NCBI RefSeq assembly: GCF_030122845.1
Contig: NZ_CP126084.1
Span: 1,922,001 to 1,986,000, forward strand
Length of the DNA: 64,000 nt
Direction of reading: 5' to 3'
Source: Paenibacillus woosongensis
GTDB taxonomy: Bacteria; Bacillota; Bacilli; Paenibacillales; Paenibacillaceae
In this document: one piece after another, positions 3,548 through 47,606 of the stretch
Position numbering within the stretch: position 1 is the stretch's first letter
Layout: every line of letters begins with the position of its first letter
Translations under genes and position numbers: made by a program
The notes under the pieces: model-generated
Databases searched by the model: none
What the model saw: only the letters and a program-made list of their open reading frames with translations
What the model was told of the DNA's origin: nothing

Positions 3548-3548
3548 T

Positions 3549-4304
3549 ATGTCACAGATCGCCAAACGGTTTTACAAAGGCAGAGTCGCATTAAATGTAC
3601 TGGCCAAGGACGTGGAAAATGCCAAGGAAATATTTGAGGCTGCGGAAGGATACGTACTGGTTGGCGTCCTATCCAAGGACTATGCAACAGTGGATGCAGC
3701 CGTAGCGGCCATGAAGCAATACGGCCGGGAAATCGATGAGGCAGTTTCGATCGGGCTCGGCGCCGGTGATAACCGTCAAGCGGCAGTGGTGGCGGAAATT
3801 GCTAAACATTATCCTGGAAGCCACATCAATCAGGTATTTCCTGCTGTCGGGGCTACCCGGGCCAATCTCGGGGAGAAGGACAGCTGGATCAACAGTCTGG
3901 TATCACCAACGGGCCGGGCAGGATATGTGAATATATCAACTGGGCCGATTAGTGCGGCAGGCAGTGAACCGGCAATTGTGCCAATTCGCTCGGCGATTTC
4001 CCTCGTCCGCGATATGGGCGGCAATGCCCTGAAGTATTTCCCGATGGAGGGGCTGAGCCGTGAAGAGGAATTCCGTGCCGTAGCCAGAGGTTGTGCTGAG
4101 GAAGGTTTTGCCCTCGAACCGACGGGCGGCATCGATATGGATAATTTCGAGGCTATTCTGCGGATCGCCTTGGAAGCGGGAGTTCAGCAAGTGATCCCTC
4201 ACGTATATTCTTCAATCATTGACAAGGCATCGGGAAAAACGAATGTCCAGGATGTACGCGATTTACTCGCGATCATGAAAAGGCTGGCTGATCAGCATGG
4301 CTAA
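3549..4304 (+). CDS. dgaF: 2-dehydro-3-deoxy-phosphogluconate aldolase, DgaF-like
   Basis: A Schiff-base class I aldolase of the KDGP aldolase (DgaF) family, cleaving 2-keto-3-deoxy-6-phosphogluconate to pyruvate and glyceraldehyde 3-phosphate in the cytosol. Recognisable blocks are INQVFPAVGATRA, VNISTGPISA, the lysine region NALKYFPMEGL near residue 160, and EPTGGID. Its 251 residues match the DgaF type, which is longer than the classical KHG/KDPG aldolase. A GGGGG ribosome-binding site precedes the ATG. It lies one base after dgaE and overlaps the kinase gene by 8 bases, so translation is probably coupled. Confidence 0.9.
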   Translation: MSQIAKRFYKGRVALNVLAKDVENAKEIFEAAEGYVLVGVLSKDYATVDAAVAAMKQYGREIDEAVSIGLGAGDNRQAAVVAEIAKHYPGSHINQVFPAVGATRANLGEKDSWINSLVSPTGRAGYVNISTGPISAAGSEPAIVPIRSAISLVRDMGGNALKYFPMEGLSREEEFRAVARGCAEEGFALEPTGGIDMDNFEAILRIALEAGVQQVIPHVYSSIIDKASGKTNVQDVRDLLAIMKRLADQHG

Positions 4305-5313
4305 GCGGATAGCCGCCTTTGGCGAGGTTATGATGCGTCTGCAGGTGCCAGGGTATGATCTGCTGTCGCAGGGCAATACGCTGCACTATACGTTTTCCGG
4401 TACCGGTGTTAATGTTGTCTCGACGCTAGCTAGATTCGGACATACGGGGAGCCTAATCTCCCGCTTGCCAGCCAATTCGTTGGGCGAGGCCGCCAGAGCC
4501 TATTTGCGCAAGCTGGGAATTTCCACATCATCCATTCTAGAGGGCGGAAATTATATCGGCATGTATTTCCTGGAGAATGGATTCGGCGCCAGACCCAGCC
4601 GCGTAACCTACAGTAACCGCTTGGACAGCAGCTTTAATACAGCTCCTGAGGGTGTGTACGATTATGATAATATTGCCCGGGGAATGGATGCGATTCATTT
4701 CTGCGGGATAACGCTGGCGATGAATGATGGCGTCAGGCAGCATATGAAAGCGCTGGCTCGTGCGCTCAAGGCGCAGGGAGGCCTCGTTGTTTTCGATTGC
4801 AATTATCGGCCTTCTCTGTGGGGCGAAGGCGGATATGCCCAGGCAAAGCCGCACTATGAGGAAATGCTGCGCTTGGCAGACATCGTGATGATGAACGAAA
4901 AAGACGCCATCTGCACTTTGGGGATGAGCACACAAAAGGAGCATCGCGAAGAGCAGCTTAAGGAGCTCATCCCTTTCGTTGCCAAACAATATCAAATCCC
5001 GGTTATCGCTGGTACGCACCGCTCCATCCATGGCGACAATTCGCATTCCTTGCGCGGGTTTGTGTACAAGGATCAGAGTTTCACTTTTTCGGATATGCTG
5101 ACCTTTTCCGTCTATGATAGAATAGGAGCTGGGGATGCCTTTGCGAGCGGGATTATTCATGGCGAACTGGCGGGTTTCCTGCCAGAGAAGACGGTCGCGT
5201 TCGCGGTGGCGGCGGGCATGCTGGCGCACACGGTATCAGGCGATACCCCTATGTCAACCGAAGAGGAAATACTGCGGGCGATGACAAGGCCCGCTGGCGA
5301 TGTAGAAAGGTAG
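4297..5313 (+). CDS. PfkB-family sugar kinase, probable 2-keto-3-deoxygluconate kinase
   Basis: A ribokinase/PfkB-family carbohydrate kinase of 338 aa. It has the N-terminal FGEVMMRL strand with the early GTGVNV substrate loop, and the C-terminal GAGDAF motif with the general base at about Asp280. The closest named activity is 2-keto-3-deoxygluconate kinase, which would feed unphosphorylated KDG into the same aldolase made by the gene upstream. The ATG overlaps the 3' end of dgaF by 8 bases. The gene order means both phosphorylated and unphosphorylated keto-deoxy acids could enter this route. The specificity for KDG rather than another sugar acid is inferred. Confidence 0.85.
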   Translation: MAKRIAAFGEVMMRLQVPGYDLLSQGNTLHYTFSGTGVNVVSTLARFGHTGSLISRLPANSLGEAARAYLRKLGISTSSILEGGNYIGMYFLENGFGARPSRVTYSNRLDSSFNTAPEGVYDYDNIARGMDAIHFCGITLAMNDGVRQHMKALARALKAQGGLVVFDCNYRPSLWGEGGYAQAKPHYEEMLRLADIVMMNEKDAICTLGMSTQKEHREEQLKELIPFVAKQYQIPVIAGTHRSIHGDNSHSLRGFVYKDQSFTFSDMLTFSVYDRIGAGDAFASGIIHGELAGFLPEKTVAFAVAAGMLAHTVSGDTPMSTEEEILRAMTRPAGDVER

Positions 5314-5322
5314 TGGAAATAA

Positions 5323-6039
5323 GTGAGCTTGTCCAGAAAGGATAAACCGCTATATTTGCAAATCAGGGATATTTTGAAGGATCGGATCTTGCACGGCGTT
5401 TACCCCTTAGGCCAGAACATCCCTTCGGAGCCGCAATTGGAGCAGGAATTTTCCGTGAGCAAAATTACCGTTCGAAGTGCGATTCAAGAGCTTGTCCAGG
5501 AAGGGTATCTTGAAAAAGGCAGCGGAAAAGGAACCAAGGTCATTCGCAATAAAGCGGCTTCCAAACTGTCGAAATGGAAGCACTTCACCGAAATTTTAGT
5601 AGAGGAAGGGCATCGCATCCAAAAGCAGTGGCTTCGGGCCGAGACGGTTCAGACCGAAGCGGATGCCGAGCTGCGCCGCTTATTTGGTGAACACTGCTTC
5701 AGGCTGGAGCGGGTGTACTTTCTTGATGAAAGGCCATACGTTTACTATACGCATTATTTGGCGATGGCTATGGGCGAGCTGGAACTTGCCGATTTAAATG
5801 CCCGATCCTTGTACGAACTGCTGGAAGAGCACAATATTTCTTTGGATCGGCTGCGCGATGAGTTCTCGGTTGCCGTGCCTCCGCCGGAGGCGGAAGCGAT
5901 TCTGCAGCTTGAGGGCAAAGGGATGCCGCTGCTCAAGAGATCCCGTTATTCTTATGACGAGCACGGCAAGGTTAGGGAATACAGCATCGGATATTACAAT
6001 ACAGAGCTGCAAAATTATATCGTAAATTATGATGTGTAA
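5323..6039 (+). CDS. GntR-family transcriptional regulator with UTRA domain
   Basis: A 238-aa GntR/HutC-subfamily regulator. The N-terminal winged helix (residues about 5-72) has the typical PLYLQIRDILKDRI opening and the recognition segment EPQLEQEFSVSKITVRSAI. Residues about 90-235 form the UTRA ligand-binding domain, ending in REYSIGYYNTE. It starts at GTG 5323, 9 bases after the kinase gene, and ends the operon. Regulators of this class are usually repressors released by a sugar phosphate or related metabolite. The palindrome at 1317-1336 is its likely operator, giving self-regulation of the whole operon. Confidence 0.88.
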   Translation: MSLSRKDKPLYLQIRDILKDRILHGVYPLGQNIPSEPQLEQEFSVSKITVRSAIQELVQEGYLEKGSGKGTKVIRNKAASKLSKWKHFTEILVEEGHRIQKQWLRAETVQTEADAELRRLFGEHCFRLERVYFLDERPYVYYTHYLAMAMGELELADLNARSLYELLEEHNISLDRLRDEFSVAVPPPEAEAILQLEGKGMPLLKRSRYSYDEHGKVREYSIGYYNTELQNYIVNYDV

Positions 6040-6059
6040 TATGGTATCAGTAACTGTTG

Positions 6060-6107
6060 AAAAGGCTGTTCCCGTATGCGGTTTTCCGCTGCGGGGGCGG
6101 CTTTTTT
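6060..6107 (+). terminator. Rho-independent terminator after the GntR operon
   Basis: An imperfect GC-rich hairpin (left arm from AAAAGGCTG, right arm ending GGGGGCGGC) is followed by six T at 6102-6107, 20 bases after the GntR stop codon. It separates the amino-sugar-acid operon from the GH130 gene. Confidence 0.75.
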
Positions 6108-6245
6108 CATACCTGTGAATGCGCCGAAAATAATACCCGCATTATTCAGATGTTTTCGAAAGTTTATAGGATATTTTGTACCGAAGCACCGGTCTATAAT
6201 AGCCCTATACACAAATATAAAGGGCTTTCATAAGGAGGCAGACCG

Positions 6246-7262
6246 ATGAAAATTACAAGACATCCGGATAATCCGATTGTGGTTCCGGGAGGATATGAAT
6301 GGAGGAAGGTCACCGTATTCAATCCGGCGGTAATTATTGATAACGGTAAATTCTACATGATTGAGCGTACGGCAGGCTCGCTCACACCTTGCAAAAACTA
6401 CCTGGGGCTTCTGGAAAGCGAGGACGGCGTAAACTTTACGCATGTGAAGGACGAGCCTGTCCTTACCCCAGACATGCTGGGTTTCCCATACGGAAGCGTG
6501 CAGGATCCCCGGATCGTGAAAATAGATGATACCTTCTACATGAACTATGCACTGCGGCCTTGCGCAATGAGCTATTATCCGACAGGTGCAGGCATCCCGG
6601 AGCGTTCGATCCCTACGTATCCTGACGGCTGGGGAGAGCAGGAAGGTCATTGGCTGACCCGCTCATCGATCGTTACCTCCAAGAATCTGATTGACTGGGA
6701 GTTTCTTGCGGACACGACGCCGCTGGATATTAATGATCGGGACAATATCCTTTTCCCGGAAAAAATCAATGGCAAATACGTCCTGCTGCGCCGTCCGGAG
6801 GAATATGTGGGCGAAGCCTATGGCACCGAGAAAGCGGCCATGTGGATCACTTATTCGGAGGATCTGATTCATTGGGAGGAGCCAAAGCTGCTCGCCAAAG
6901 CGGAGAACATGGCCTGGGAGTCGAGAAAAATCGGTGGCTCCACGCCGCCAGTCAAAACCGATCGCGGTTGGCTTGTCCTCTATCACGGGGTGGATGATGA
7001 CGTCGTTTACCGGGTAGGCGCTATGCTGCTGGATCTGGACAATCCGGAGAAAATCATAGCCCGCACGAAGAATTTCATTATGGAGCCTGAAACATATTAT
7101 GAGAAATTCGGGTATCAAATTCCAAACGTTATTTTCCCGACGGGCAATGTGGTGAAAGATGGCTTGCTGTATATTTATTACGGGGTTACGGATACGGCGA
7201 TTGCGCTGGCTACGGTGCCTCTGGATGATCTGGTGGATTATATTTTAAACGAACCACAATAA
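6246..7262 (+). CDS. GH130 family beta-mannoside phosphorylase/hydrolase
   Basis: A 338-aa five-bladed beta-propeller glycosidase of family GH130. It shows the family's NPAV strand near the N-terminus, the DPRI motif in SVQDPRIVKIDD that carries the catalytic acid aspartate, and the later GGSTPPV and LYHGVD blocks. There is no signal peptide, so it acts in the cytosol on imported sugars. Most family members phosphorolyse beta-mannosides to mannose 1-phosphate; some are hydrolases, and the sequence alone does not settle which. A strong AAGGAGG lies 7 bases upstream of the ATG. It sits directly upstream of a sugar ABC transporter, which fits uptake of short mannosides. Confidence 0.88.
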   Translation: MKITRHPDNPIVVPGGYEWRKVTVFNPAVIIDNGKFYMIERTAGSLTPCKNYLGLLESEDGVNFTHVKDEPVLTPDMLGFPYGSVQDPRIVKIDDTFYMNYALRPCAMSYYPTGAGIPERSIPTYPDGWGEQEGHWLTRSSIVTSKNLIDWEFLADTTPLDINDRDNILFPEKINGKYVLLRRPEEYVGEAYGTEKAAMWITYSEDLIHWEEPKLLAKAENMAWESRKIGGSTPPVKTDRGWLVLYHGVDDDVVYRVGAMLLDLDNPEKIIARTKNFIMEPETYYEKFGYQIPNVIFPTGNVVKDGLLYIYYGVTDTAIALATVPLDDLVDYILNEPQ

Positions 7263-7315
7263 ATATCAGCTGAATATTTCGGATATAATCGAAGATTTGT
7301 GGGATACAGCCTGAA

Positions 7316-7329
7316 TGAAAACGTTTTTA
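7316..7329 (+). promoter_or_regulatory. Candidate cre (CcpA) site upstream of the ABC transporter
   Basis: TGAAAACGTTTTTA matches the catabolite-response consensus TGWNANCGNTNWCA with one mismatch. It lies 88 bases upstream of the sugar-binding-protein start, a usual place for carbon catabolite repression. CcpA itself is not in the window. Confidence 0.45.
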
Positions 7330-7416
7330 TACTAAATGTATAGCAGATGCAAATAAATAAAGTACACATCTGTTAGGCAGCACTAGTCTTTCAATCATAA
7401 GAAAAGAGGGTTGGGT

Positions 7417-8730
7417 ATGGGAAAAACAAACAAAGGCAAAAAAGCAGTGCTTCTCGGCCTGGTCGCGATGCTCGTTCTGCTAACAGCAGCGTGCGGCAAG
7501 GACAACGCAGCGGGAGAGAACAACAAAGGAGCGGCGGAAGCGGAGACAATCACCTTGACTATGATGCATCCTTGGACTTCGCCGAACGTGGACAATGAAG
7601 TCTACAAGGCCCGGATCGCCGAATTTGAGGAGCAGCATCCGAATATCAAAATCAAACAGGACGGCGTGCCGGCAGCGCAGTACAAAACCAAGCTCCGTAC
7701 GTTAGCCGCGGCTAACAATTTGGCGGATATCAACGTAGTATGGCCGGGAGCGGATCTAGACCCGCTCGTAGCAGGCAACTTGCTTGCACCAATCAATAAC
7801 ATGATGGAAAACTGGGCCTCCATTTTGCCGGACAGTGCTTTGGATGGATTCAATGTTGATGGCCAGCAGTATGCCATACCGACAAAGCAAACGTTCGTGG
7901 ACATTATCTATTACAACAAAGAAATGTTTGCACAAGTAGGCTATGATCAATTCCCAGATACCTACGACAAATTCATTGACGCGGTGAAGAAACTGAAGGA
8001 AGCGGGAATTACCCCGATTTCTCTAGGGAACAAGGAACAATGGCCGCTTCAATCCTCTTACATCTCCATCATTGGTGATCGCTATACAGGCAGTGATTTC
8101 CTGCCGGGCGTGCTGGAGAAAAAAGCGGAATTTACCGATCCTGGATTCGTAAAAGCGCTTGCGGTCATCGATGAATTGACCAAACTGGGAGCCTTCAATA
8201 CGGATGCCAACAACATGGACTCCGTACAAGGACAGGATTATTTCATCCAAGGCAAAGCGGCGATGCATATTTCGTCCTCGACAGTCGACGGAAGAGTGCG
8301 CATCAACAACGATGAAGGGGACAAATTCGGCATTGCATTGTTCCCGAGCGTAGAAGGCGGCAAGGGTGATCCGGTTAAAAGCGCCGGCGTCGTTCAATAC
8401 GGCATTGCCATCAAGAGCGGACTGGATGAGAAAAAACAGCAGGCAGCCGAAGAGTTCCTGAAGTTTTTCGTAAGTGAGGATTTGTATAAAGAATTGATCC
8501 GCAACGGAATTGTCGTTCCGGCGAAAGTAGATGTACCGGAAGATGCCAGCAAATATTTGAAAGAGATGCTGGCATTAACGGGCAACGGAACTGCTCCGGT
8601 ATTTGATAGCGTTATTCCGACACAGGTGGTCGATGTGCTGCAGAACGGATTGCAAGCGCTGACCATGGGCAGAGGAACGCCTGAAGAGCTGGCTAAAGAA
8701 GTTCAAGAAGCCTTTGACACGATGAATTAG
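7417..8730 (+). CDS. ABC sugar transporter, extracellular solute-binding lipoprotein
   Basis: A family 1 solute-binding protein (437 aa). It has a positively charged N-terminus, a hydrophobic segment, and an LTAAC lipobox with the lipidated cysteine at residue 26, so it is tethered to the outer face of the membrane. The mature part has the typical WTSPNVD, PTKQTF and AMHISSS blocks of carbohydrate-binding members. I chose ATG 7417 (AAGAGGG 6 bases upstream) over TTG 7411. It is the first gene of the transporter set and is followed by a hairpin and two permease genes. No ATPase gene is present, so a shared MsmX-type ATPase elsewhere probably powers it. Confidence 0.92.
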   Translation: MGKTNKGKKAVLLGLVAMLVLLTAACGKDNAAGENNKGAAEAETITLTMMHPWTSPNVDNEVYKARIAEFEEQHPNIKIKQDGVPAAQYKTKLRTLAAANNLADINVVWPGADLDPLVAGNLLAPINNMMENWASILPDSALDGFNVDGQQYAIPTKQTFVDIIYYNKEMFAQVGYDQFPDTYDKFIDAVKKLKEAGITPISLGNKEQWPLQSSYISIIGDRYTGSDFLPGVLEKKAEFTDPGFVKALAVIDELTKLGAFNTDANNMDSVQGQDYFIQGKAAMHISSSTVDGRVRINNDEGDKFGIALFPSVEGGKGDPVKSAGVVQYGIAIKSGLDEKKQQAAEEFLKFFVSEDLYKELIRNGIVVPAKVDVPEDASKYLKEMLALTGNGTAPVFDSVIPTQVVDVLQNGLQALTMGRGTPEELAKEVQEAFDTMN

Positions 8731-36665: not shown

Positions 36666-37793
36666 TTAGTCTCTAATGTGTACCAGTAAGTATTTGGTAT
36701 GCTGATCCCACCCCAGGTCAAAGGGAACGCGATAACGGTCGGCCGAGTGCGAATTGACGAGGGGATAGCCGTAATCGTCGAATCCTACCACGATGGAGAA
36801 GTGATCCACATCGCTGCCGCTAATGATATATCCGATCAAATCGCCTGGCTGAATATGTGAAATTGCTCCATCCGGATATTTGGCCGAAGGAGCGACAATA
36901 TCCCGGAATTGTCCCCTGGCAAGCAGTTTTCCGTATCCGGAATATATCAGGAAATTATAGAAGGAATCCGTCCGGATCCACGCTTCGCTTCCGCCCTTCT
37001 TGGCAAAATATCGCCATGATCCGGTCATCGGCAGCCCTCCGCCTTCTTTTTCGTCGCCAACCGCCTGTGAAGCGAAATTGGTACAATCGCCGCCCTTGCC
37101 GGAGTAATCGGCATATTTGCGGTTATACCTGTGATTATTGCCGGCGCCCCAGGCTGTTCCCGCATATTTATTCGCATACTCCACGGCACGGGCCCGGCGG
37201 TATTTTTTGCCGTCCACGGGCTGCTGCCGATAATTGACAGAAGGGGAGGTTCCGTCATCCGTCACCGCAATTTTGTTTGGATTCTCGTCCAGAGGGTCCA
37301 GATACCATTCCTTATGGACCTTCCAGTCGTCATCCAGCTTCTTTAATGTAAGATAATGTTCAGTTCCGATTCCGAACGACTGAACGGGCACATTTTTGTT
37401 GGTATAGGTGTAATCCACCTTCAAGGAATGAACCAGGGATATTTTTGCTGTATCCTTTGAGGTTCTCAGACGCACGATTCGTATTTCGCTATTGGCCTTA
37501 AGGAGCTTGATTGCCCTCTTGATCGCCCATTCGTTAAGATAATTCGTTCGGTTAACTTCATTGTGGAGAGCGTGCTTGCTCACTTTGTTGTCATGAAGAT
37601 AAAGTTCTTTTAATCCATCAGTCTCCCGGCTGACAAGAATGTCAGCTCTCTGCTTGTACAGCTTATCCAGAAAGGCGCGCACCTCTTGTTCCTCTTGATC
37701 GCCCGAAGCCGCATAAACCTCCGCTTTGCAGGAAAGTAAAGTCATGCAGAGGATAAGGATGGCTGCTACAAATTTATTGGTCAAGTTCATCAT
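36666..37793 (-). CDS. Exported Amidase_6 domain protein
   Basis: A 375-aa secreted protein. The N-terminus is a signal peptide (cleavage near YAA-SG). Residues about 25-180 look like a linker or NTF2-like region. The C-terminal putative amidase domain (Amidase_6) shows RARAVEYANKYAG, GDCTNFASQAV with the probable catalytic cysteine, and DHFSIVVGF with a histidine. It may cleave a cell-wall or peptide amide bond. I chose the ATG at 37793 (GGACGG upstream), which overlaps the sortase gene by 20 bases, so the two are co-translated. Its true substrate is not known. Confidence 0.82.
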   Translation of the reverse strand: MMNLTNKFVAAILILCMTLLSCKAEVYAASGDQEEQEVRAFLDKLYKQRADILVSRETDGLKELYLHDNKVSKHALHNEVNRTNYLNEWAIKRAIKLLKANSEIRIVRLRTSKDTAKISLVHSLKVDYTYTNKNVPVQSFGIGTEHYLTLKKLDDDWKVHKEWYLDPLDENPNKIAVTDDGTSPSVNYRQQPVDGKKYRRARAVEYANKYAGTAWGAGNNHRYNRKYADYSGKGGDCTNFASQAVGDEKEGGGLPMTGSWRYFAKKGGSEAWIRTDSFYNFLIYSGYGKLLARGQFRDIVAPSAKYPDGAISHIQPGDLIGYIISGSDVDHFSIVVGFDDYGYPLVNSHSADRYRVPFDLGWDQHTKYLLVHIRD

Positions 37794-38436
37794 CACCGTC
37801 CAGCTTGGCAAAAACGATCAGTCTTTGCTCATGCTCCTTTTTTTTTCTGCTGTATTTTCCACTGCATGTCACCAGATTCAACCTGTGCTCTGTCGTATCC
37901 CCGAAAACCCGCTCGACGGGTGCTTCCGATGTAGGATAGGATTCAACGGCCTCCACAATATAGGTCAATTTCTGTTTGGCATGATCCCGTACAATGATTG
38001 AATCGCCGGGCTTTAACTTTTTCAAATTAAAAAAAATGGCCGGGCCGGTATAGCTATCGACATGGCCGTCCATCACTATATTTCCAGGTTCCCCTGCAAG
38101 TACGCCCGGATGCAGGACGCCGACGATATCCGTATGTTTCGGAACATCCATTTGCCCGTCCTCAAGCACCCCCACCGGCTCAACACTAGCCTTTACCTTA
38201 ATGGCAGGAATTATGAGCTCTGTTGGCATAAACGGTTTGGGTAGCGGCCTGCGCATGTTCTCCGCCGGCTGCATTTCTGTGTCATTCACCATTGGGGGGG
38301 ACGGCGGGGAGGGCAGGGAATGGGAATGCGGCTGCGGCTGTGGCTTGATGTTCTCCTTCGCCTGCTTGGCAGGACCGCAACCTGCGCAACTGACGGCTAA
38401 AACAATGGTAAACAGAATAACTAATCGTTTCATCAT
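37774..38436 (-). CDS. Class F-like sortase
   Basis: A 220-aa exported transpeptidase. Hydrophobic N-terminus with a possible lipobox cysteine (Cys20), a Pro/His-rich linker (30-70), then a sortase domain. The catalytic set is His125 (GHVDS), Cys191 (NLVTCSG) and Arg205. The sequence around VMDGHVDSYTGPAIFF is typical of class F sortases rather than class A-D. It lies between the amidase gene downstream and the small MPKTG protein gene upstream, which is its most obvious substrate. Confidence 0.88.
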   Translation of the reverse strand: MMKRLVILFTIVLAVSCAGCGPAKQAKENIKPQPQPHSHSLPSPPSPPMVNDTEMQPAENMRRPLPKPFMPTELIIPAIKVKASVEPVGVLEDGQMDVPKHTDIVGVLHPGVLAGEPGNIVMDGHVDSYTGPAIFFNLKKLKPGDSIIVRDHAKQKLTYIVEAVESYPTSEAPVERVFGDTTEHRLNLVTCSGKYSRKKKEHEQRLIVFAKLDGDDELDQ

Positions 38437-39637: not shown

Positions 39638-39672
39638 AAGCCGCTCTTCCGGTCAGGAAGAAGCGGCTTTTT
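39638..39672. terminator. Bidirectional terminator between HAD and yhe genes
   Basis: AAGCCGCTCTTCC pairs with GGAAGAAGCGGCTT (one bulge) and T or A tracts flank both sides. It overlaps the 3' end of the minus-strand YheC-like gene and can serve both convergent transcripts. Confidence 0.85.
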
Positions 39673-40759
39673 GTTTGTGCAGCCACATGGCGTATTCAAG
39701 CGGTCTTGCAATGGCTGCCCGGTATGCTTCGGGATCGCCGGACTGGTTGAACACCTCTCGGGCGGGCTTGGGATTGACCTCCAGCAAATAGACTTTTCCG
39801 CTGGGATCGATCGCAAGATCGAGAGCCAGCTCGCAGAGCGCGCCGTAATTCGCCTCCAGCGTTGCAGCGACATCGATGCTCAGTTTCTCGGCTGTACGGC
39901 GTATTTCCACGCGCTTCTCCTCGCTATGGGAGGCATGCTTCAGCAGCGTGTTCATAGGCACGGCATGCCCGCCGCCGTGCAGATTGGAGGTCACGCTTCT
40001 CGGTGGGCCGACCCTTCCGGCACATCCGGTCACCGCCCATTTCCCGGAGCCGTTCTTCTGAACGAGCATGCGGAAATCATGTACCCGGCCGTTAGGCAGT
40101 TTAATTTCAATCCCCTGCTGAACGAGATAGTTTTTTTTCGCTTTCCAGCGGATTAAATATGGAGCCAGCCTCGCCTTATGCATTTTTTGCGCCGGGATAA
40201 TTTTTCTGGCAAGCGTTCGGCCCTGAATCAGGTAAAGCTCCTTCCCCAATCGGTCGACCCGCAGTATTCCCCTTCCACCGGTGCCCTGCATGGGCTTAAC
40301 ATATATACACGAATAATTCCGCATGAATCGATATACGTCGCTCATATTCTGAAATATGGCGGTTTCCGGTAAATGGGGCCTGAATCTTGGCCTGCTGGAC
40401 AGAAGTTGGTAAATCGCCCATTTATCGCGAATCGGCCGATTCAGGAATGTGAAGGTGCTGTTATAGCGATTGCGAAATTTGACCAACTGCTCGAATCGCT
40501 TGTTTTTCTGAATACGCCCCCGGTCGAAGATGAGATTCGGAAAGCTGCGCCACTTGCGCGACCATTTCTTTGATTTTGGATCAAATTGCAGGGAATGAAC
40601 GAGTTTCTTCTCATGATGGACATCCATAGGAGTGAATACGAAGACATCCAGACCCATCTTTTGGCCTTCGACGATCATTTTCTGGTATATATGTCGTTCC
40701 TCCAGCTGCTTCTTATCATTCATATACAGCGTCAATATGCCAAGAACAGGTTGCGACAA
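39653..40759 (-). CDS. yheC: YheC/YheD-family ATP-grasp protein (short, C-type), copy 5
   Basis: A 368-aa ATP-grasp enzyme of the YheC/YheD family, linked to the endospore coat in B. subtilis but with no proven reaction. Glycine-rich ATP loop YVKPMQGTGGRG, DFRMLVQ, and the metal motif LEVNPKPAREVF near the end. I chose TTG 40759, which has AAGAAGGTG 6 bases upstream; GTG 40768 overlaps that site. ATP-grasp enzymes join a carboxylate to an amine or thiol through an acyl phosphate. Last of five adjacent family members. Confidence 0.88.
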   Translation of the reverse strand: MSQPVLGILTLYMNDKKQLEERHIYQKMIVEGQKMGLDVFVFTPMDVHHEKKLVHSLQFDPKSKKWSRKWRSFPNLIFDRGRIQKNKRFEQLVKFRNRYNSTFTFLNRPIRDKWAIYQLLSSRPRFRPHLPETAIFQNMSDVYRFMRNYSCIYVKPMQGTGGRGILRVDRLGKELYLIQGRTLARKIIPAQKMHKARLAPYLIRWKAKKNYLVQQGIEIKLPNGRVHDFRMLVQKNGSGKWAVTGCAGRVGPPRSVTSNLHGGGHAVPMNTLLKHASHSEEKRVEIRRTAEKLSIDVAATLEANYGALCELALDLAIDPSGKVYLLEVNPKPAREVFNQSGDPEAYRAAIARPLEYAMWLHKQKAASS

Positions 40760-40804
40760 TACGTTCACCTTCTTTATACGGTAGTCGGTTCACAATATTC
40801 CGGC

Positions 40805-41929
40805 TTAAGCGGATGGGTTCTTGGGTTGACTGGCCAAATGCTGACTGTATTGAAAAATTCGTTCGAGCGATTTTTTGCGGATTTGCGGTTCATCGAATTT
40901 CATCGGTTTGCTGTTCGCCTCAAAGAACCACATGTTTCCTTCTGTATCAATGCCGAGATCCATCGACATTTCACCAAGCATATGCCCTGATGCTTTTTCA
41001 ATTTGCTTGGCGATGAGCACGGCGTTGGATCTCAGGCGATTAATGATTGCGTTGGTCATCTCGCTGCCGAAAGTAGGGGTTAACAGCTTCTCGGGCGATT
41101 CGATGCTGCCGCCTTGAGGCACATGGGTAGTAATTCTTTTAGGGCCAGCGAGCCGTGCGCCAACGCCAGTGACCATCCATGCGCCTTTACCCGTTTTTTG
41201 CACGAGTATGCGCAGGTCAAAATTGCGGTCCCGGTATGTGGTGAGTTTGATGGCTTCCTGCATGATATATGGAGCTTTTCTCATTTCTCTTCTTATTCGT
41301 CTCCAGAGCAGGTCTAGCTTGTCGGTCCGGTAAATGATATTTCTGTATCTTTGGCCCTGGATCGTTAAACGAAAAGGTTTTTCATGCTCCTCCTCATATT
41401 GCAGGAGCATGATTCCTTTGCCGGCCTTGCCGGATTCCGGCTTTAAATAGAGGCGCCCGTAGATTAGGAGCATGGCCTCAAGCGTTCTGGGACTAAGAAG
41501 TCTCCGGGTATTTGGAACAAACGCTTTAGTAGAGCGGTTCCTCTTCAGCCATTCGAACAGCTTGCGTTTATTGAAAAAATAGGGGTTGTAGATATGAATT
41601 GTTCGATGCTGGATGCATGCATCGATTTTTTTGCGGACATTACGTTTTTGCTCGTCTTCCCGGTGTGGAATCCGATTATACACGACATCGGGAAGGGGGA
41701 ACCACTGCTTCGACCAGGTTTTACTCTCGGAGCTGTAATGGTACCCCCGGATCCGTTTGGCTGACAGCTTCAAATCCTTTGTAGTCACGACGTAGACGGG
41801 AAAGTCCAGATCCTTGCCGGTATTTATTATATCTCTGAAGTTGGCTTTATTTCCGCGGAAAAGGGATTCCGGGTCTTCTACAGTCAGAACGGCAACCACG
41901 GTTTTTTTTTCAGCGATGTGCTGGATCAT
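40805..41929 (-). CDS. YheC/YheD-family ATP-grasp protein (C-type), copy 4
   Basis: A 374-aa member with YLKPESGKAGKG, DLRILVQ and FEANSKPMKFDE, so both ATP and metal motifs are kept. The lead part (RGYHYSSESKTW) matches the other short copies. ATG 41929 overlaps the stop of the preceding long copy by one base, with GGAGG upstream, so the two are translationally coupled. Same-strand operon with 45882-39653. Confidence 0.87.
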   Translation of the reverse strand: MIQHIAEKKTVVAVLTVEDPESLFRGNKANFRDIINTGKDLDFPVYVVTTKDLKLSAKRIRGYHYSSESKTWSKQWFPLPDVVYNRIPHREDEQKRNVRKKIDACIQHRTIHIYNPYFFNKRKLFEWLKRNRSTKAFVPNTRRLLSPRTLEAMLLIYGRLYLKPESGKAGKGIMLLQYEEEHEKPFRLTIQGQRYRNIIYRTDKLDLLWRRIRREMRKAPYIMQEAIKLTTYRDRNFDLRILVQKTGKGAWMVTGVGARLAGPKRITTHVPQGGSIESPEKLLTPTFGSEMTNAIINRLRSNAVLIAKQIEKASGHMLGEMSMDLGIDTEGNMWFFEANSKPMKFDEPQIRKKSLERIFQYSQHLASQPKNPSA

Positions 41930-43302
41930 CAGCCTTCCCTCCTGCGGAATTTACTAAGATAGAGGCAGTGCTCCAAAATATGCTCAACGGATGCTTTTCC
42001 CTCGGCTCTTAGAGATGGATGCTGGAATATAGATCTTCCCGGCTTGGCATTAGCCTCGAACATCCATATTTTCTCGTCCTTGTCTATTCCGATATCGAAG
42101 CCGATTTCACCAATCAAATGCTGGTGGTGATACTCTATGGCTTGGGCCAGCGTAATGGCGACGTTCTTGGCATGACGCAGCACTTCATCCGCTCTTGAGC
42201 CGAAGGCACGGCCAAGTGCCTGTTCGGGAGTCAGCAGCGAACCTCCGTTCTTAAGATGGGTTGTTACGCTGCCTTTTCCTGCTTTCTTGGCTCCGATGCC
42301 GACAACAACCCAGTTGTTCCTGCCGTTCTTATGCATATGAAACCGGAAGTCGATGGGACAGCCGTCAATTTCGATTAGGCGGATACCCTGCTGCGCTACG
42401 TAGCTGCGGAGCGACCGGCCATGCCTTTCTTGGAGGGTGCGCATCAGGCTGCCGAAGGAGCTGAAGCGCAGCAGCGCATTTTTCCCCCGCAGACGGTAAC
42501 GGGCATAATAACCGTTTTTTGGGATATAGGAAAGTCTATAAATGCCATTTCCCAGGCTTCCGTTATTCGGTTTGTAATAAATGAGGGAGTGGCGGTCAAG
42601 CAAATTTTTAATTTGCTCGGGTGTAGGGTTCATAATCGATTCCGGTACGTAACGGTTGACCATGGGATCTCGTTCCAGCAGCTTATATATATCCGATTTG
42701 TTAAAGAAGCTCCAGTTGAAGAACGGAATTTTCTTGCGAATGAACCGCTCCCGAAGCAGGCCGATGGACGAGGTCGTCTCGGCCCGCCGGCTGGGCAGGC
42801 GGTTATAGACGACATCCGGCAGCGGAACTGTTTTGCGGTAAAAATGCCCGGATTCGTTCAGAAAATAGCCGTTGACGGTTTCCTGTTCCCAGTTGATATC
42901 GCGCGGGGTAAAGGCAAATATATAGGACTGTTTGCTTCCCAGCTTGAGAAGCTGCTTGATGAAGGTTGTTCTGGAACCGAACCGATTTTGGGTGGAGCCT
43001 GCGGGGCCGTCTGATAACACGCCGATTAGCGGGCCCAGATGGACCTCGCCATCTTGATTGCTGCGAAGGTATATGGCTCCTGATTTCGGAATTTTGATTC
43101 CTTTACGAACGCTCGATGCAAGGTAGATATGGTTGCCTGGTTTGTTAATCGGTTTGACTGTTGCAGGAATGCGGTCTTGGCCCAGTCTGAGATGAACGGA
43201 CTTCTTCCCTGATAATTTCAGGTTCTTCATTAATGATCCCGACACGTAGACGACCCTTTGGGGCTGCTGCGTGAAATGGACATTGCAGTAAGTCAAACTC
43301 AT
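41929..43302 (-). CDS. YheD-type ATP-grasp protein (long), copy 3
   Basis: A 457-aa member of the long type, with an additional N-terminal domain of about 90 residues (LRLGQDRIPATVKPI, AIYLRSNQDGEVHLG) before the ATP-grasp part. ATP loop YYKPNNGSLGNG, DFRFHMHK and FEANAKPGRSIF are present. AGGAGG precedes the ATG. The stem-loop at 43321-43337 lies just upstream of this binding site. It pairs with the following short copy as a long-short unit. Confidence 0.88.
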   Translation of the reverse strand: MSLTYCNVHFTQQPQRVVYVSGSLMKNLKLSGKKSVHLRLGQDRIPATVKPINKPGNHIYLASSVRKGIKIPKSGAIYLRSNQDGEVHLGPLIGVLSDGPAGSTQNRFGSRTTFIKQLLKLGSKQSYIFAFTPRDINWEQETVNGYFLNESGHFYRKTVPLPDVVYNRLPSRRAETTSSIGLLRERFIRKKIPFFNWSFFNKSDIYKLLERDPMVNRYVPESIMNPTPEQIKNLLDRHSLIYYKPNNGSLGNGIYRLSYIPKNGYYARYRLRGKNALLRFSSFGSLMRTLQERHGRSLRSYVAQQGIRLIEIDGCPIDFRFHMHKNGRNNWVVVGIGAKKAGKGSVTTHLKNGGSLLTPEQALGRAFGSRADEVLRHAKNVAITLAQAIEYHHQHLIGEIGFDIGIDKDEKIWMFEANAKPGRSIFQHPSLRAEGKASVEHILEHCLYLSKFRRREG

Positions 43303-43320
43303 GAATTTATCCTCCTAATC

Positions 43321-43337
43321 GTTTTGCGAAGCAAAAC
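43321..43337. repeat. Palindrome GTTTTGCGAAGCAAAAC between ATP-grasp genes
   Basis: A 7-bp stem with a 3-base loop in the 75-base gap between two ATP-grasp genes. A partial copy (TTTTGCGAAGCAA) lies at 43387-43399, and a close relative with CAAAG centre is at 51311-51329 in the dnaE upstream element. Probably a small dispersed palindromic repeat. Confidence 0.6.
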
Positions 43338-43377
43338 AGCTTCCAATGCCAGACTCAAAGCATAATACTGCATCAGG

Positions 43378-44499
43378 CTAGGCTAGAGTTTTGCGAAGCA
43401 ACAAGTATCGTGCATACTGTATCGGGTTTTCCACGGATTTTTGGGCGCCTTGCATATCGCCGATGCGGAAGAAGGATGATCTGCCCGGCTTGGAATTGAC
43501 CTCGAGAATCCATACATGTCCGCCCGGTTCAACGCCAAAGTCGATTCCGAGCTCTGCGAGCCGGCCAAAATGGGATTCCAAATGCTCAGGAATGGCTTCT
43601 GCAAGACGCTGAATAATTCGTACGGTCTGAATGCCGCGGTGTTCGCCGAACTCTTTGATCAGGTAAGGAACGGCTTTATGCGCAGTTCCGCCGCCATGCA
43701 GATTAGAGGTGAGGGAGTGCTTGCGTCCGGCTCGTACTGCCATACCTGTCATGCTCCACATGCCATTTTCATTTTTTTGCATCAGTACTCTGACATCGAA
43801 AGGTTCATCCCTGCTATTGTTCAGCCGCAAGTAGGGTTGCAGCAGGTATGCCCTGTTCGCGATGAACCGGTGTATCCAATCCAGTCCATCTTCCTTGGAA
43901 CGGAATTTTTTGCGGAACAATTGATTGCTGCCGCTTCTGCCTGTGATTATTAGCCCGACATCTAAACTCCCCTTGATATTTTGGACATGCAATGTCCGCT
44001 TTCCGTGCGTACCGTTTTGCGGCTTCAGGAAGGCTCCACCTTCCTGTGCGAGCAGCCACCGGTTCAAATGTTCAGGGTTTTCGTATCGAACCGTATCGGG
44101 AAGATAGGGGGCTATGAAGCGATGTTTTTTGAGTGCCTGGTAGACGGACCATTTGCCGGTAAGAGCGCGTGCTAGATAAACAAAGGGCTGCTTCTCGGAA
44201 AGGGACGCCAAACATCGCTGCTTGCGCCGCTGCTGTCTTTTGTCGTGGGAAATGCAGCGATCGTAAATGATTTCAGGAGCCGGAAACGGCTTTCGTATCC
44301 ATTTGCCGTTCTCAAACGTATATCCAGGGATGCTCCTGCTGCCCGGGGTAACCCACCCCGGACAAAAAACATATATCGTCATTTTCTGCCGGCGGCCGAT
44401 ATGACATAATTGACGGCAAAATGCCGCTTCCGCAAAAGGAAGGGGGCCTGCGCATTCGCTTACCATGATGCCTATAATGCCTTGTGAAGAGGGATTCAT
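43378..44499 (-). CDS. YheC-type ATP-grasp protein (short), copy 2
   Basis: A 373-aa member with FLKPQNGTHGKR, DVRVLMQ and LEVNSKPGRSSFF. The ATP loop differs from the others by Arg-Thr after GTHGK. AAGGAGG is 6 bases before the ATG. It is 15 bases downstream of copy 1. The N-terminal region has a cysteine-containing VFCPGW stretch not seen in the other copies. Confidence 0.87.
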   Translation of the reverse strand: MNPSSQGIIGIMVSECAGPLPFAEAAFCRQLCHIGRRQKMTIYVFCPGWVTPGSRSIPGYTFENGKWIRKPFPAPEIIYDRCISHDKRQQRRKQRCLASLSEKQPFVYLARALTGKWSVYQALKKHRFIAPYLPDTVRYENPEHLNRWLLAQEGGAFLKPQNGTHGKRTLHVQNIKGSLDVGLIITGRSGSNQLFRKKFRSKEDGLDWIHRFIANRAYLLQPYLRLNNSRDEPFDVRVLMQKNENGMWSMTGMAVRAGRKHSLTSNLHGGGTAHKAVPYLIKEFGEHRGIQTVRIIQRLAEAIPEHLESHFGRLAELGIDFGVEPGGHVWILEVNSKPGRSSFFRIGDMQGAQKSVENPIQYARYLLLRKTLA

Positions 44500-44514
44500 C
44501 GGATTCCTCCTTGC

Positions 44515-45882
44515 TTAGAAGCCGGACAAGAAGCGCGAATATTCGATCACTTGCTTGACGGAAGGACGTATTTTGCTCCCGCCAAGCGGCGTATTATCGT
44601 TTTTTGAAGGTTTGGAATTCACTTCAAGCAGCCAAATGCGGCCATGCTGGTCGACTGCGAGATCAATGCCGAGTTCTCCAAAATGAGCCGGAATTTGTTG
44701 GTCAATGCCAAGCGCGATGTCGAGAGCCGCCTTCTTGAGCCTGACATTTAACCTCTTCTTGGCTGCCGGGGGAAGTGTGCTGCGCGATATCGCATTCTTC
44801 AGCGTGCAGAGCGAGCCGCCTCGCGCCAGATTGGATACGAAATGCTGATCATTCGCAATCCGGGCGACAACGGAGGTAACGCTCCATTTGCCGAACCTGT
44901 TCTTCTGTACCAATGCTCTGAAATCCACTGGCCGCCGGTCCATAAGTATCAGGTGAAGTCCTTGCTGGATCTGGTACCGCGTCGATTTCATTTTCCCGGA
45001 TAGGGTAGTGAACAACTTGGAAAGACTGGCGTAATTGTGCTTCTGGGTGCCTCCGACTTGAGCGGTCAGTGTCTGATATCCGCCGCCGTCCAGCCGGGAT
45101 ATGCGGATAATCCCTTTGCCGAGGCTTCCTTTGATTGGCTTGAGGAACACGATAGGGTGCCTGCTGCACATCGATTTCAGCATGGCGTAATTGCGGAACA
45201 AGTGTGATTCTGGCATATATCCCGCCACCGAAGGAGCCTTGCCAAGCGCATCGAAAACCTCGGTTTTATCCAGGAATTTTTCATTGAAGTAATGGCTGCC
45301 GTAGAGGGATTTTACTTCTTTCATGAAATGCTGTACGCTAGGTTTATTCTCCAATTTGCGCGATGTCAGGCGATTATAGAACACGTTTGCGGCCGGAAGC
45401 TCGGTTTTCTTCCAGCCGTCTGCATAAAGCCATCCCGTCACCTTCGAGCTGCTGCTTCCGATATGGGACGGGGTAAAGAAATAAACAAAGACACCTTGTT
45501 GTTGACAAGCATTAGCGAGTTCCCGGCAGAACTGGGTGATGGGGCCAAAAGGCCTTTCCGTTACATCAGGGTAATCCTGGCTGATTAGGACACCGACAAT
45601 CGGACCAAGCTGAATGGTGGAGGATTGGGGGCGATAAAAGATCCGAAGCGTCGACCTCGCTGGAAGAGCCATGCTTTTGGCAAGTCCTTGGCTGATCCGG
45701 ATCCCGTCTAACCGGGATAAGGGAATGACTTTGACATTGTGCCGGAATGAACCGAAGGATAGCTGAAGCGGCTGATTGGTCGGAATTTTCAGCTGCTTAA
45801 TCAGCAGCTCTCCGACCACGAGACAGTCATCCTCCAGCAAACCCGGTTTCATGATTTGTACCTTAATTTTTTTGGAGTGCAT
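44515..45882 (-). CDS. yheD: YheD-type ATP-grasp protein (long), copy 1, first of operon
   Basis: A 455-aa member of the long type, with the additional N-terminal domain (LQLSFGSFRHNVKVI, STIQLGPIVGVL) and the ATP-grasp part with FLKPIKGSLGKG, DFRALVQ and LEVNSKPSKNDN. GGAAGGAG lies before the ATG. It is first of five tandem members and follows a sporulation-type promoter candidate, so it is probably expressed in the mother cell. B. subtilis has one yheC and one yheD. Confidence 0.88.
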   Translation of the reverse strand: MHSKKIKVQIMKPGLLEDDCLVVGELLIKQLKIPTNQPLQLSFGSFRHNVKVIPLSRLDGIRISQGLAKSMALPARSTLRIFYRPQSSTIQLGPIVGVLISQDYPDVTERPFGPITQFCRELANACQQQGVFVYFFTPSHIGSSSSKVTGWLYADGWKKTELPAANVFYNRLTSRKLENKPSVQHFMKEVKSLYGSHYFNEKFLDKTEVFDALGKAPSVAGYMPESHLFRNYAMLKSMCSRHPIVFLKPIKGSLGKGIIRISRLDGGGYQTLTAQVGGTQKHNYASLSKLFTTLSGKMKSTRYQIQQGLHLILMDRRPVDFRALVQKNRFGKWSVTSVVARIANDQHFVSNLARGGSLCTLKNAISRSTLPPAAKKRLNVRLKKAALDIALGIDQQIPAHFGELGIDLAVDQHGRIWLLEVNSKPSKNDNTPLGGSKIRPSVKQVIEYSRFLSGF

Positions 45883-45948
45883 GAAGCGGATCTCCTTCCA
45901 AGCTTAGGCTTGATGTCTTGGATGCGTCTTCGTAAATACATGTAATGC

Positions 45949-45976
45949 ATCATATGAGGACATAGAATCCTTGGTG
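45949..45976 (-). promoter_or_regulatory. Candidate SigK/SigE-type promoter of the ATP-grasp operon
   Basis: On the minus strand CACC (45976-45973) is followed after 16 bases by CATATGAT (45956-45949), close to the SigK pattern AC then CATANNNT. It lies about 67 bases before the start of copy 1, giving a plausible leader length. Mother-cell control would suit a coat-associated operon. Confidence 0.45.
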
Positions 45977-46061: not shown

Positions 46062-47228
46062 TTGGCAGATTGGTTATACATTGTAGTTAGCGTCGCCATA
46101 GCTGCGTTTGTTGGCGGAGTCACGAATCATTTTGCAATAAAAATGCTTTTTCATCCGAGAAGCCCGGTTATGATCGGCAAATGGCGCGTCCCGTTTACGC
46201 CGGGGCTTATTCCAAAGCGAAGGGAAGACATTGCAGAGTCTTTAGGCAATGTGGTCTCCGATTATCTCGTTACGGCGGAAGGGCTGCAGGATATGGTAAT
46301 GCGGCCGGAGTTTCGTCTTCAGGCAGAGGAGAAGCTGGGCGAATTATTAAACCGCTGGGTCAGCAGCAGTCTGACGGTAAAGGAAGCGGCCTTGCGAATC
46401 TGGTCGGAAGAGGAGTGGGAAGCCGTTAAAGGCAGATCAGCCTCAGCTCTCACGGCAATTCTTCAGTACGGTTTCCGGCATGCATGGCATAAATACGGCT
46501 GGGAACAGAAACCGCTGAAAAGCTTGGTACCAGGCTGGTCAGAGAATAATCGTCAAGTGTGGAGCGAAGCGGCAGCCGATGCGATTCTAGATGCCGTAGC
46601 GGAGGAGCTGCTCTCCTCGCAAGGGCAGCGGCTGCTCGCCAAAATGGCCGCCGGACTTGCGGACAATGCAGGCGGATTTCTCGGAACGATGGCCGCGATC
46701 TTCATGGATGAGGAGAAGCTGGTTCAGAAGCTTACGCCTACCCTTGTCCGCGCTTTGCAGGGCGAAGAAGCCCGCGCAAAGGTCGCTTCCGCGATCCGAG
46801 CGCGCATGGAAATTTACGGCGAGAAGCCGGTCGGCGAGGTGCTGCGCTCTTTAGCGGGGAGCGAGCCAGAAGCCTGGATCGGGCAGAAGCTGGACGAGCT
46901 TCCGCTGGAGGCATGGATTGCCAAGGCTGAGGGCGTAAAGCTAGCTTCACTGCTTGAGCCGTGGTACAGTCAAGCTGCAGCTGCGGTACCCAGCCTTGCG
47001 AACCGCATGCTGCGCCTGATCGCTCGCGTCATACCGCCTGCGATGAAGGCGATCCGGCTGCCGCAGCTCGTGAAGGAGCAGGTTCAGAAGTTTCCTGTTG
47101 AACGGCTGGAGGAGGTAATACTCAGCGTCTCCGGCAAGGAATTTAGAGCTATTACCTGGCTCGGTGTACTGCTAGGCGGCATGATTGGGCTGATCCAGTC
47201 CTTGCTGCTGCTGTGGGTTGGGCGTTAA
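46062..47228 (+). CDS. yheB: DUF445 family membrane protein YheB
   Basis: A 388-aa protein with an N-terminal membrane helix, the DUF445 start VGGVTNHFAIKMLFHPR and PFTPGLIPKRRE, a long helical middle, and a C-terminal membrane helix (FRAITWLGVLLGGMIGL). It matches B. subtilis YheB in length and gene position. The function is unknown. It starts at TTG 46062 with GGGAGG upstream. It is divergent from the ATP-grasp operon and followed by yheA, so yheA-B-C-D stay together as in B. subtilis, though in a different arrangement. Confidence 0.88.
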   Translation: MADWLYIVVSVAIAAFVGGVTNHFAIKMLFHPRSPVMIGKWRVPFTPGLIPKRREDIAESLGNVVSDYLVTAEGLQDMVMRPEFRLQAEEKLGELLNRWVSSSLTVKEAALRIWSEEEWEAVKGRSASALTAILQYGFRHAWHKYGWEQKPLKSLVPGWSENNRQVWSEAAADAILDAVAEELLSSQGQRLLAKMAAGLADNAGGFLGTMAAIFMDEEKLVQKLTPTLVRALQGEEARAKVASAIRARMEIYGEKPVGEVLRSLAGSEPEAWIGQKLDELPLEAWIAKAEGVKLASLLEPWYSQAAAAVPSLANRMLRLIARVIPPAMKAIRLPQLVKEQVQKFPVERLEEVILSVSGKEFRAITWLGVLLGGMIGLIQSLLLLWVGR

Positions 47229-47258: not shown

Positions 47259-47606
47259 ATGAACATTTATGACAAAGCACATGATCTGGCAAAGGCGCTT
47301 AAAGAAAGCCAGGAGGTGTCCGATATCACTTCGGCGATGAAGCTGGTGGACGCTGACCCGGAAAGCAAACGGATGCTGGATGATTTTCGCCAGAAGCAAA
47401 ATGAAGTACAACAGCGGATGATGAGCGGGGATATGCCGTCTCCCGAGGAAATGGAGCAAATGGAAAAGCTGTTCGAGGTGTTGAGCTTGAATTTGAACAT
47501 TCGCCGCTTGTTTGATGCCGAGCGCCGTCTTAGCGTCATCATCCAGGATGTAAACAAAATCATTACGGACAGTCTGCAGCACCTGTACGGTTCGGAGCTT
47601 TCTTAA
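47259..47606 (+). CDS. yheA: YlbF/YmcA-family protein YheA (UPF0342)
   Basis: A 115-aa helical cytoplasmic protein of the UPF0342/DUF964 group. Blocks are YDKAHDLAKALKES, LDDFRQKQNEVQ, and a C-terminal helix with RLFDAERRLSVIIQDVNKII. Family relatives YlbF and YmcA form a complex that modulates RNase Y and development, but YheA itself has no established role. AGGAGG precedes the ATG. It sits 30 bases after yheB. Confidence 0.9.
   Translation: MNIYDKAHDLAKALKESQEVSDITSAMKLVDADPESKRMLDDFRQKQNEVQQRMMSGDMPSPEEMEQMEKLFEVLSLNLNIRRLFDAERRLSVIIQDVNKIITDSLQHLYGSELS

Follow-up and report, generated by a model that had tools for sequence, protein, structure and literature searches.

The 64,000-nt stretch of the Paenibacillus woosongensis genome analysed here (NZ_CP126084.1, positions 1,922,001 to 1,986,000; hereafter the window) carries five complete open reading frames (ORFs) for ATP-grasp proteins of the YheC/D type, placed head to tail on the minus strand at 39653-45882. 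With a probability of about one half, this array is an ancient operon whose five YheC/D genes encode different ATP-dependent carboxylate-amine ligases that would be produced late in the mother cell and would form amide bonds in series on the growing spore coat. For these distinct amide ligases we infer the timing, the chemistry, the serial action and the acceptor, for which the coat protein CotE is the prime candidate.

Organization of the array

All five predicted proteins match the Pfam family PF14398 (ATPgrasp_YheCD) with 243-273 bits and E values of 3.2e-72 to 2.5e-81, against a curated cut-off of 26.8 bits. In the order of transcription, the genes are:

44515..45882, minus strand: position 1, long YheC/D gene, 455 aa; PF14398 E 2.4e-76; position-1 clade shared with other families, support 99
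43378..44499, minus strand: position 2, short YheC/D gene of 373 aa that corresponds to yheC, the first gene at Bacillus-type loci; PF14398 E 3.2e-72; L064_1 and L074_1 in the same clade
41929..43302, minus strand: position 3, long YheC/D gene of 457 aa that corresponds to yheD, the second gene at Bacillus-type loci; PF14398 E 2.5e-81; L064_2 and L074_2 in the same clade
40805..41929, minus strand: position 4, short YheC/D gene, 374 aa; PF14398 E 5.5e-73; position-4 clade support 100
39653..40768, minus strand: position 5, short YheC/D gene of 371 aa, called from a GTG start, with an in-frame TTG 9 nt further in; PF14398 E 1.4e-78; position-5 clade support 98

The intergenic gaps measure 15, 75, -1 and 36 nt. 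An initial sequence-only reading had described five complete, head-to-tail YheC/D ATP-grasp genes in the order long-short-long-short-short, and the ORFs, their lengths and the profile matches bear this out. Its description of the spacing as coupled or near-zero suits two of the four gaps and is loose for the other two.

Conservation in Paenibacillus and other Bacilli

Homologous loci were located through YheC/D coordinates, because yheB, one of two divergent genes that serve as synteny anchors beside the array, matched in only 20 of 79 order genomes at E 1e-20. The anchors are:

46062..47228, plus strand: yheB homologue (DUF445), divergent; PF04286 E 2.2e-47
47259..47606, plus strand: yheA homologue (YlbF family), divergent; PF06133 E 4.4e-28

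The comparison covers 39 genomes of the genus and 80 named loci, two sets that overlap and contain close relatives, so that their counts are not independent, together with 38 loci of the class from outside the family Paenibacillaceae. Each of the 39 genus genomes contains 8-14 PF14398 matches, and ten lie above the cut-off in the window genome (5.29 Mb). Exactly five YheC/D ORFs are present at the locus in 38 of the 39; L041 shows six pieces, probably owing to frame errors in its assembly, in which the PF14395 gene is likewise split. The array is adjoined by yheA in all 39 genus loci and by yheB in 28. Among the named loci, 72 have five ORFs, four have six (five plus a distant extra copy in L127, L155 and L165, a split gene in L169), three have four, and one, which sits on a 3.7-kb contig, has three. 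The closest named locus is that of P. woosongensis 12CR55, with a position 3 that is 98% identical. The YheC/D family is carried by 169 of 250 genomes of the class Bacilli. At the 38 loci outside the family, four ORFs are most frequent (25 loci), followed by five (5), three (4), two (3) and one (1), and yheB often adjoins them. L064 and L074 (family f24) have two YheC/D genes beside a divergent yheB-yheA pair and were taken as the Bacillus type. Since the array is ordinary for the genus and a member of a known family, its copy number gives no reason for surprise.

Phylogeny of the five positions

Each Paenibacillus position groups with the same position of other Bacilli families, both in a FastTree tree of 241 rows and in an IQ-TREE mixture-model tree of 114 rows, where the clade supports for positions 1-5 are 99, 99, 96, 100 and 98. 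The larger tree omits 23 Paenibacillaceae loci (close relatives of those kept, and L041 for its broken frames) as well as proteins below 300 aa; the smaller one, a topology test with 62 rows and a deep-locus tree with 91 rows use hand-chosen loci with clear gene order. In both the FastTree and the IQ-TREE tree, the first gene of L064 and L074 falls into the position-2 clade and the second gene into the position-3 clade. Because the genes of the Bacillus-type loci are thus positions 2 and 3, their two-gene state would most simply be a remnant produced by loss and not the ancestral state. Six loci (L066, L072, L073, L075, L079 and L084) stand off the five-position scheme, their first and second genes lying outside the five clades in the FastTree tree. 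The deep order of the paralogues is settled for positions 2 and 5 only, which are sisters with a support of 100. A grouping of positions 3 and 4 is neither recovered nor rejected in the topology test (approximately unbiased (AU) test, p 0.402, 62 rows) and appears with a support of 98 once deep rows are added (91 rows).

These trees bear on the proposal of the sequence-only reading that the repeating long-short unit arose by duplication of a yheD-yheC pair, an event that could have been local and have served dosage or new substrates. The lengths do alternate in the window, and the AU test does not reject a topology in which all short genes (positions 2, 4 and 5) are united apart from the long ones (p 0.256). 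However, a pairing of positions 2 and 4 is rejected (AU p 0.0014, 62 rows), the array is found throughout the genus, its five clades are common to other Bacilli families, positions 1-4 occur in order outside Bacilli, and the two Bacillus-type genes correspond to positions 2 and 3. Position 4 is also long outside Paenibacillaceae: the 15 relatives compared measure 427-451 aa and carry an N-terminal module, which ends in a GPxx(G/A)I(L/M) motif in 14 of the 15, and a similar motif is present in positions 1 and 3. As position 4 is short in Paenibacillaceae only, among the rows compared, the length pattern of the window is probably in part the product of a truncation. The strict form of the proposal therefore fails, the duplication is not local, and we consider a local copying of the pair hardly credible. 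Recent or decaying copies were likewise rejected, as the five window proteins share a pairwise identity of just 23.6-28.7% and retain their catalytic residues; this excludes the near-identical duplicates with dead ATP sites that had been named as a possible outcome.

Active sites and predicted fold

Residue conservation was surveyed in 320 proteins (66, 69, 71, 66 and 48 for positions 1-5) from loci L012-L091 and the window. The survey omits L041, L066, L072, L073, L075, L077, L079, L080 and L084 entirely, L065 save for its position 3, positions 1 and 4 of L068 and L081, and position 2 of L091. In position-3 numbering, all 320 proteins have K202, K244, G248, G251, Q304, D318, R320, D403 and N418; E416 is kept in 316 and replaced by D in four, and E399 is kept in 319 and replaced by D in one. 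All five window proteins contain K202, K244, G248, G251, D403, E416 and N418, which we take, from general knowledge of the ATP-grasp fold, to be ligands of ATP and metal; the intact ATP loops and metal motifs noticed earlier are thereby corroborated. Near the ATP loop and the metal site there are further sites at which the fixed residues depend on the position: residues 249-250 are mostly SL, TH, SL, KA and TG in positions 1-5, and residue 349 is N, N, H, H and N. This is the pattern that five enzymes with different substrates would show. The glycine loop of position 2 in the window (43378-44499) reads GTHGKR; at its last site, R is the commonest residue in position 2 (33/69), and the other positions nearly always have G.

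It could be argued that the proteins are mainly structural, self-assembling coat components in which catalysis is secondary or lost. In the accessible portion of one study, Bacillus subtilis YheD is described as forming rings and then a shell that encases the forespore, with strong self-interaction and no other partner found; YheC/D proteins are called coat-associated there, and the function of YheD and of the family is given as not known (PMC7911427). A structural role, however, would not need five separately conserved active sites, and the survey of 320 proteins shows conserved catalytic residues at all five positions, which makes this explanation improbable.

For position 3, a structural model with a mean predicted local distance difference test (pLDDT) score of 91 has RimK and LysX/ArgX as its nearest folds. 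These enzymes ligate amino acids to acidic protein tails. RimK, a poly-alpha-glutamate ligase acting on ribosomal protein S6, resembles position 3 in its predicted fold and differs in sequence, with 16-17% identity. The array proteins also remain far below the cut-off of the NCBIfam RimK model TIGR00768 (143.4 bits), position 1 scoring 21.2 bits and position 5 19 bits, with no match of positions 2, 3 and 4 at E 0.001. LysX/ArgX, which act on the acidic carrier protein LysW, are single enzymes compared with the five paralogues of the array, and CotE, unlike LysW, is a structural coat protein and not a known carrier. A position-3 profile gave no match to PDB sequences at E 0.01.

Linkage to CotE, a COOH-NH2 ligase and a GNAT gene

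In four loci from outside the Bacilli (L210, L213, L215 and L219), the gene order is cotE, Y1, COOH-NH2 ligase, Y2, Y3, Y4, GNAT and a CotS-like gene, where Y1-Y4 are YheC/D genes. In the 91-row tree, the Y genes of L213 and L219 relate, in order, to position 1 (support 92), positions 2/5 (94), position 3 (99) and position 4 (98). The CotS-like product of L210 matches the CotS family weakly (E 3.8e-11, below the curated cut-off). CotE was found in 10 of 15 deep loci, a count that is not that of a random sample because these loci were picked, out of 23, for a PF14395 gene near YheC/D, and in six of the 42 loci from the family and the class (in L066 by a PF10628 match). It is always encoded on the same strand as the nearest YheC/D gene, at most 300 nt from it in 13 of 16 cases.

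Counts of PF14395 (the COOH-NH2 ligase), PF14398, SpoIVA and CotE in the phylum were treated as one draw of 199 genomes, judged by genome handles. PF14395 occurs in 26 genomes and PF14398 in 58, and all 26 are among the 58. The nominal probability of this co-occurrence, 8e-17, is too small because the genomes are related; the physical linkage is independent of it. In 23 genomes from outside Paenibacillaceae, the start-to-start distance between PF14395 and PF14398 is 1.1-5.4 kb, and it is below 1.7 kb in 21. In the three Paenibacillaceae genomes of the draw, the two lie about a megabase or more apart or on different contigs. CotE was found in 26 of the 199 genomes, 18 of which also have PF14395. 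SpoIVA, present in 173 of 199, is too common for testing a tie of YheC/D to sporulation. One genome of the same family as the window (G060, genus g4) is without SpoIVA, CotE and PF14395 and has four weak YheC/D matches only, a single case that fits a loss of coat genes together with sporulation.

Paenibacillus has split the deeper set, keeping the COOH-NH2 ligase with cotE and the YheC/D array and GNAT with yheA. All 39 genus genomes have the ligase, and 29 of the 30 Paenibacillus loci compared place its gene between cotE and mutS; in the remaining one, L182, there is no cotE match within the 3.7 kb covered. In the window genome, the array lies at 1.96 Mb and cotE with the ligase at 2.96 Mb, hence not in one cluster. 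A GNAT gene (PF13673) is inserted between positions 4 and 5 in 31 of the 39 genus genomes, at the array each time, and a profile search finds it in 41 of the 80 named loci. It is absent from the window genome and seven other genus genomes, and the query that matches in the 31 detects no relocated copy in the window genome. In four class loci (L066, L072, L073 and L079), a COOH-NH2 ligase gene lies inside the array (PF14395 match for L066). The C-terminal acidic tail of Paenibacillus CotE is nearly invariant. As a side observation, a gene family near YheC/D-COOH-NH2 ligase clusters recurs in 6 of 19 loci (L209, L214, L216, L217, L220 and L222); its L209 member has AstE/AspA and M99 carboxypeptidase domains and is possibly a trimming enzyme.

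Two alternative products have to be set against this gene content. The ligases might build a soluble or wall-bound spore peptide or amide metabolite in series, in the manner of glutathione or a coenzyme tail, with shared timing as the sole reason for the linkage to cotE. This is possible, though we are inclined to doubt it: cotE and the CotS-like gene are immediately linked to the YheC/D genes in deep lineages, and the position of the COOH-NH2 ligase beside cotE in Paenibacillus points to a coat protein or the coat surface. The enzymes might also add amino acids to a spore-surface polysaccharide or glycoprotein, giving sugar-linked amides. Positions 1 and 5 do exceed the Pfam cut-off for PF14397, annotated as 'sugar-transfer associated ATP-grasp', and another YheC/D gene of the window genome is divergent from glycosyltransferase and nucleotidyltransferase genes. 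The genes inside arrays, in contrast, are GNAT and COOH-NH2 ligase, and there is no glycosyltransferase among the four recurring neighbour clusters run against Pfam (19 deep and class loci with partly annotated flanks), so that we regard a sugar acceptor as decidedly improbable.

Candidate promoter and probable timing

Upstream of position 1, a candidate promoter was identified:

45948..45976, minus strand: sigma-K-like promoter, CACC-N16-CATATGATG

In the form TCACC-N16-CATATGAT at 45977-45949 on the minus strand, the site is the sole match of TCACY-N16-CATANNNT in the 64-kb window; shuffled windows contain 0.18 matches on average, with a match in 16 of 100 shuffles. The pattern TCAC[CT]-N16-CATANNNT precedes position 1 in 38 of 39 genus loci (shuffled mean 0.0), 4/4 family loci of other genera (0.0), 15/38 class loci (0.04) and 70/80 named loci (0.04). 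With the looser MACM-N15..17-CATANNNT, the counts are 38/39 (shuffled 1.28), 4/4 (0.0), 24/38 (0.92) and 73/80 (1.48), and with the strict sigma-K form MACM-N16-CATANNNTA they are 3/39 (0.14), 0/4 (0.0), 19/38 (0.12) and 13/80 (0.08). The label 'sigma-K-like' is used because the site closes with TG in most Paenibacillus loci, in place of the TA of the strict form. The mother-cell sigma-factor site that the sequence-only reading had suggested at 45949-45976 is therefore real as a pattern, and its conservation points to transcription of the array late in the mother cell. The same reading had considered that all related genomes might carry the array without coat-stage expression; the array is indeed essentially universal in the genus, and absence of such expression is contradicted insofar as the conserved promoter tells.

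Proposed mechanism and points against it

In the mechanism that we favour, each enzyme would use ATP to activate a carboxylate as an acyl phosphate and would then join it to an amino group, so that amide bonds would be formed one after another on the growing spore coat. Ligation in series is the likely chemistry of the five enzymes, and in other systems linked ATP-grasp and other peptide ligases are thought to work in succession, according to the accessible part of one source (PMC4431377). The likeliest acceptor would be an acidic coat-protein tail, and CotE is the first choice, as its gene heads this operon in deeper lineages. Further bonds or a cap could come from two other enzymes, the COOH-NH2 ligase encoded next to cotE and the GNAT that most relatives encode between positions 4 and 5. 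A more specific version, in which CotE, which organizes the outer spore coat, undergoes non-ribosomal extension by five RimK-like enzymes and the COOH-NH2 ligase, acting in fixed order on its acidic tail, with an acyltransferase cap in most relatives and B. subtilis yheC-yheD as a leftover, seems rather unlikely.

Several observations weigh against a late mother-cell pathway of serial ligation on a coat protein. For the position 3 model, RimK, LysX/ArgX and glutathione synthetase lie within less than 2 Z units of each other, so the fold cannot choose between a protein tail and a small molecule. No cotE was found in the fetched stretch of 5 of the 15 deep loci. In the phylum draw, six of the 26 CotE genomes (G115, G147, G391, G451, G463 and G514) lack a YheC/D match at E 1e-10, and just 20 of the 58 genomes with YheC/D contain CotE; as each occurs without the other, neither CotE nor YheC/D needs the other everywhere. 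Acidic tails are common, and that of CotE may be kept for protein binding alone. The pattern search upstream of the array found no sigma-K-like site in the Bacillus-type loci L064 and L074, in which they differ from the window array. This is in keeping with the control of B. subtilis yheC and yheD, which the accessible part of one study reports to be sigma-E dependent and stimulated by SpoIIID (PMC517825).

Relation to known systems

The B. subtilis yheC-yheD pair belongs to the same family, PF14398, and its Bacillus-type counterparts in L064 and L074, beside divergent yheB-yheA, group with positions 2 and 3; it differs from the array in having two genes instead of five and in its sigma-E and SpoIIID control. 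Iyer, Aravind and co-workers are said to have mentioned neighbourhoods of cotE, COOH-NH2 ligase (PF14395) and YheC/D in Firmicutes in 2009, and the Pfam entry of PF14395 reportedly mentions a YheC/D-CotE neighbourhood. We know of no positional orthology, promoter or gene-loss history in the 2009 account. In the accessible parts of the literature searched, no reaction chemistry was found for YheC/D, nor any account of positional orthology, the reduced Bacillus-type state, the conserved promoter or the retained GNAT; the 2009 neighbourhood account lay outside that search. One source, as far as accessible, places YheD in the base layer of the coat and describes it as absent from Anoxybacillus flavithermus (PMC3533761).

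Flanking features and other YheC/D genes of the genome

Downstream of the array lies a convergent HAD-like gene (Pfam assignment), and a sortase-domain gene is found nearby at 37774-38436 of the window. The end of position 5 is overlapped by a weak signal:

39644..39662, minus strand: terminator-like hairpin, weakly supported (the region has 6 terminator-like sites, compared with a mean of 9.5 after shuffling, and the folding z is -1.3)

Elsewhere in the window genome, L173 (2697000-2711000) contains a stand-alone YheC/D gene of 252 aa and, 91 nt downstream of it in the same orientation, a collagen-like gene of 314 aa (5783-7577). The collagen-like gene was considered as a substrate of the stand-alone YheC/D and rejected, as the pairing is not conserved and collagen-like repeats occur near the YheC/D gene in 2 of 30 loci. 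In L175 (1228000-1242000), the stretch 3221-7395 contains a 292-aa YheC/D gene and, divergent from it, ornithine-cyclodeaminase-like and PLP-dependent genes (by Pfam) that resemble a diaminopropionate pathway, together with a 424-aa gene that has no Pfam match. L176 (4311000-4326000) has a YheC/D match with one internal TAA at 7201-7863. Near the start of the contig, in L177 (1-14000), a 259-aa YheC/D gene (6559-7338) has neighbours that we take to be dnaA, dnaN, recF, gyrB and gyrA. Judging by its title, a 2014 paper reportedly deals with a yheCD-like sequence at Paenibacillus origins.

Implications

With this array, the description 'coat-associated, reaction undefined' would give way to a defined group of ligases, a specific acceptor candidate and a time window. 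Because it names both ligases and an acceptor candidate, the array offers a good handle on an open question. It suggests that the Bacillus pair is the reduced remnant of a system of five separately conserved enzymes tied to cotE, the COOH-NH2 ligase and GNAT. If this is true, enzymes would build an amide modification into the spore coat, one that has mostly been lost in the usual model organism.

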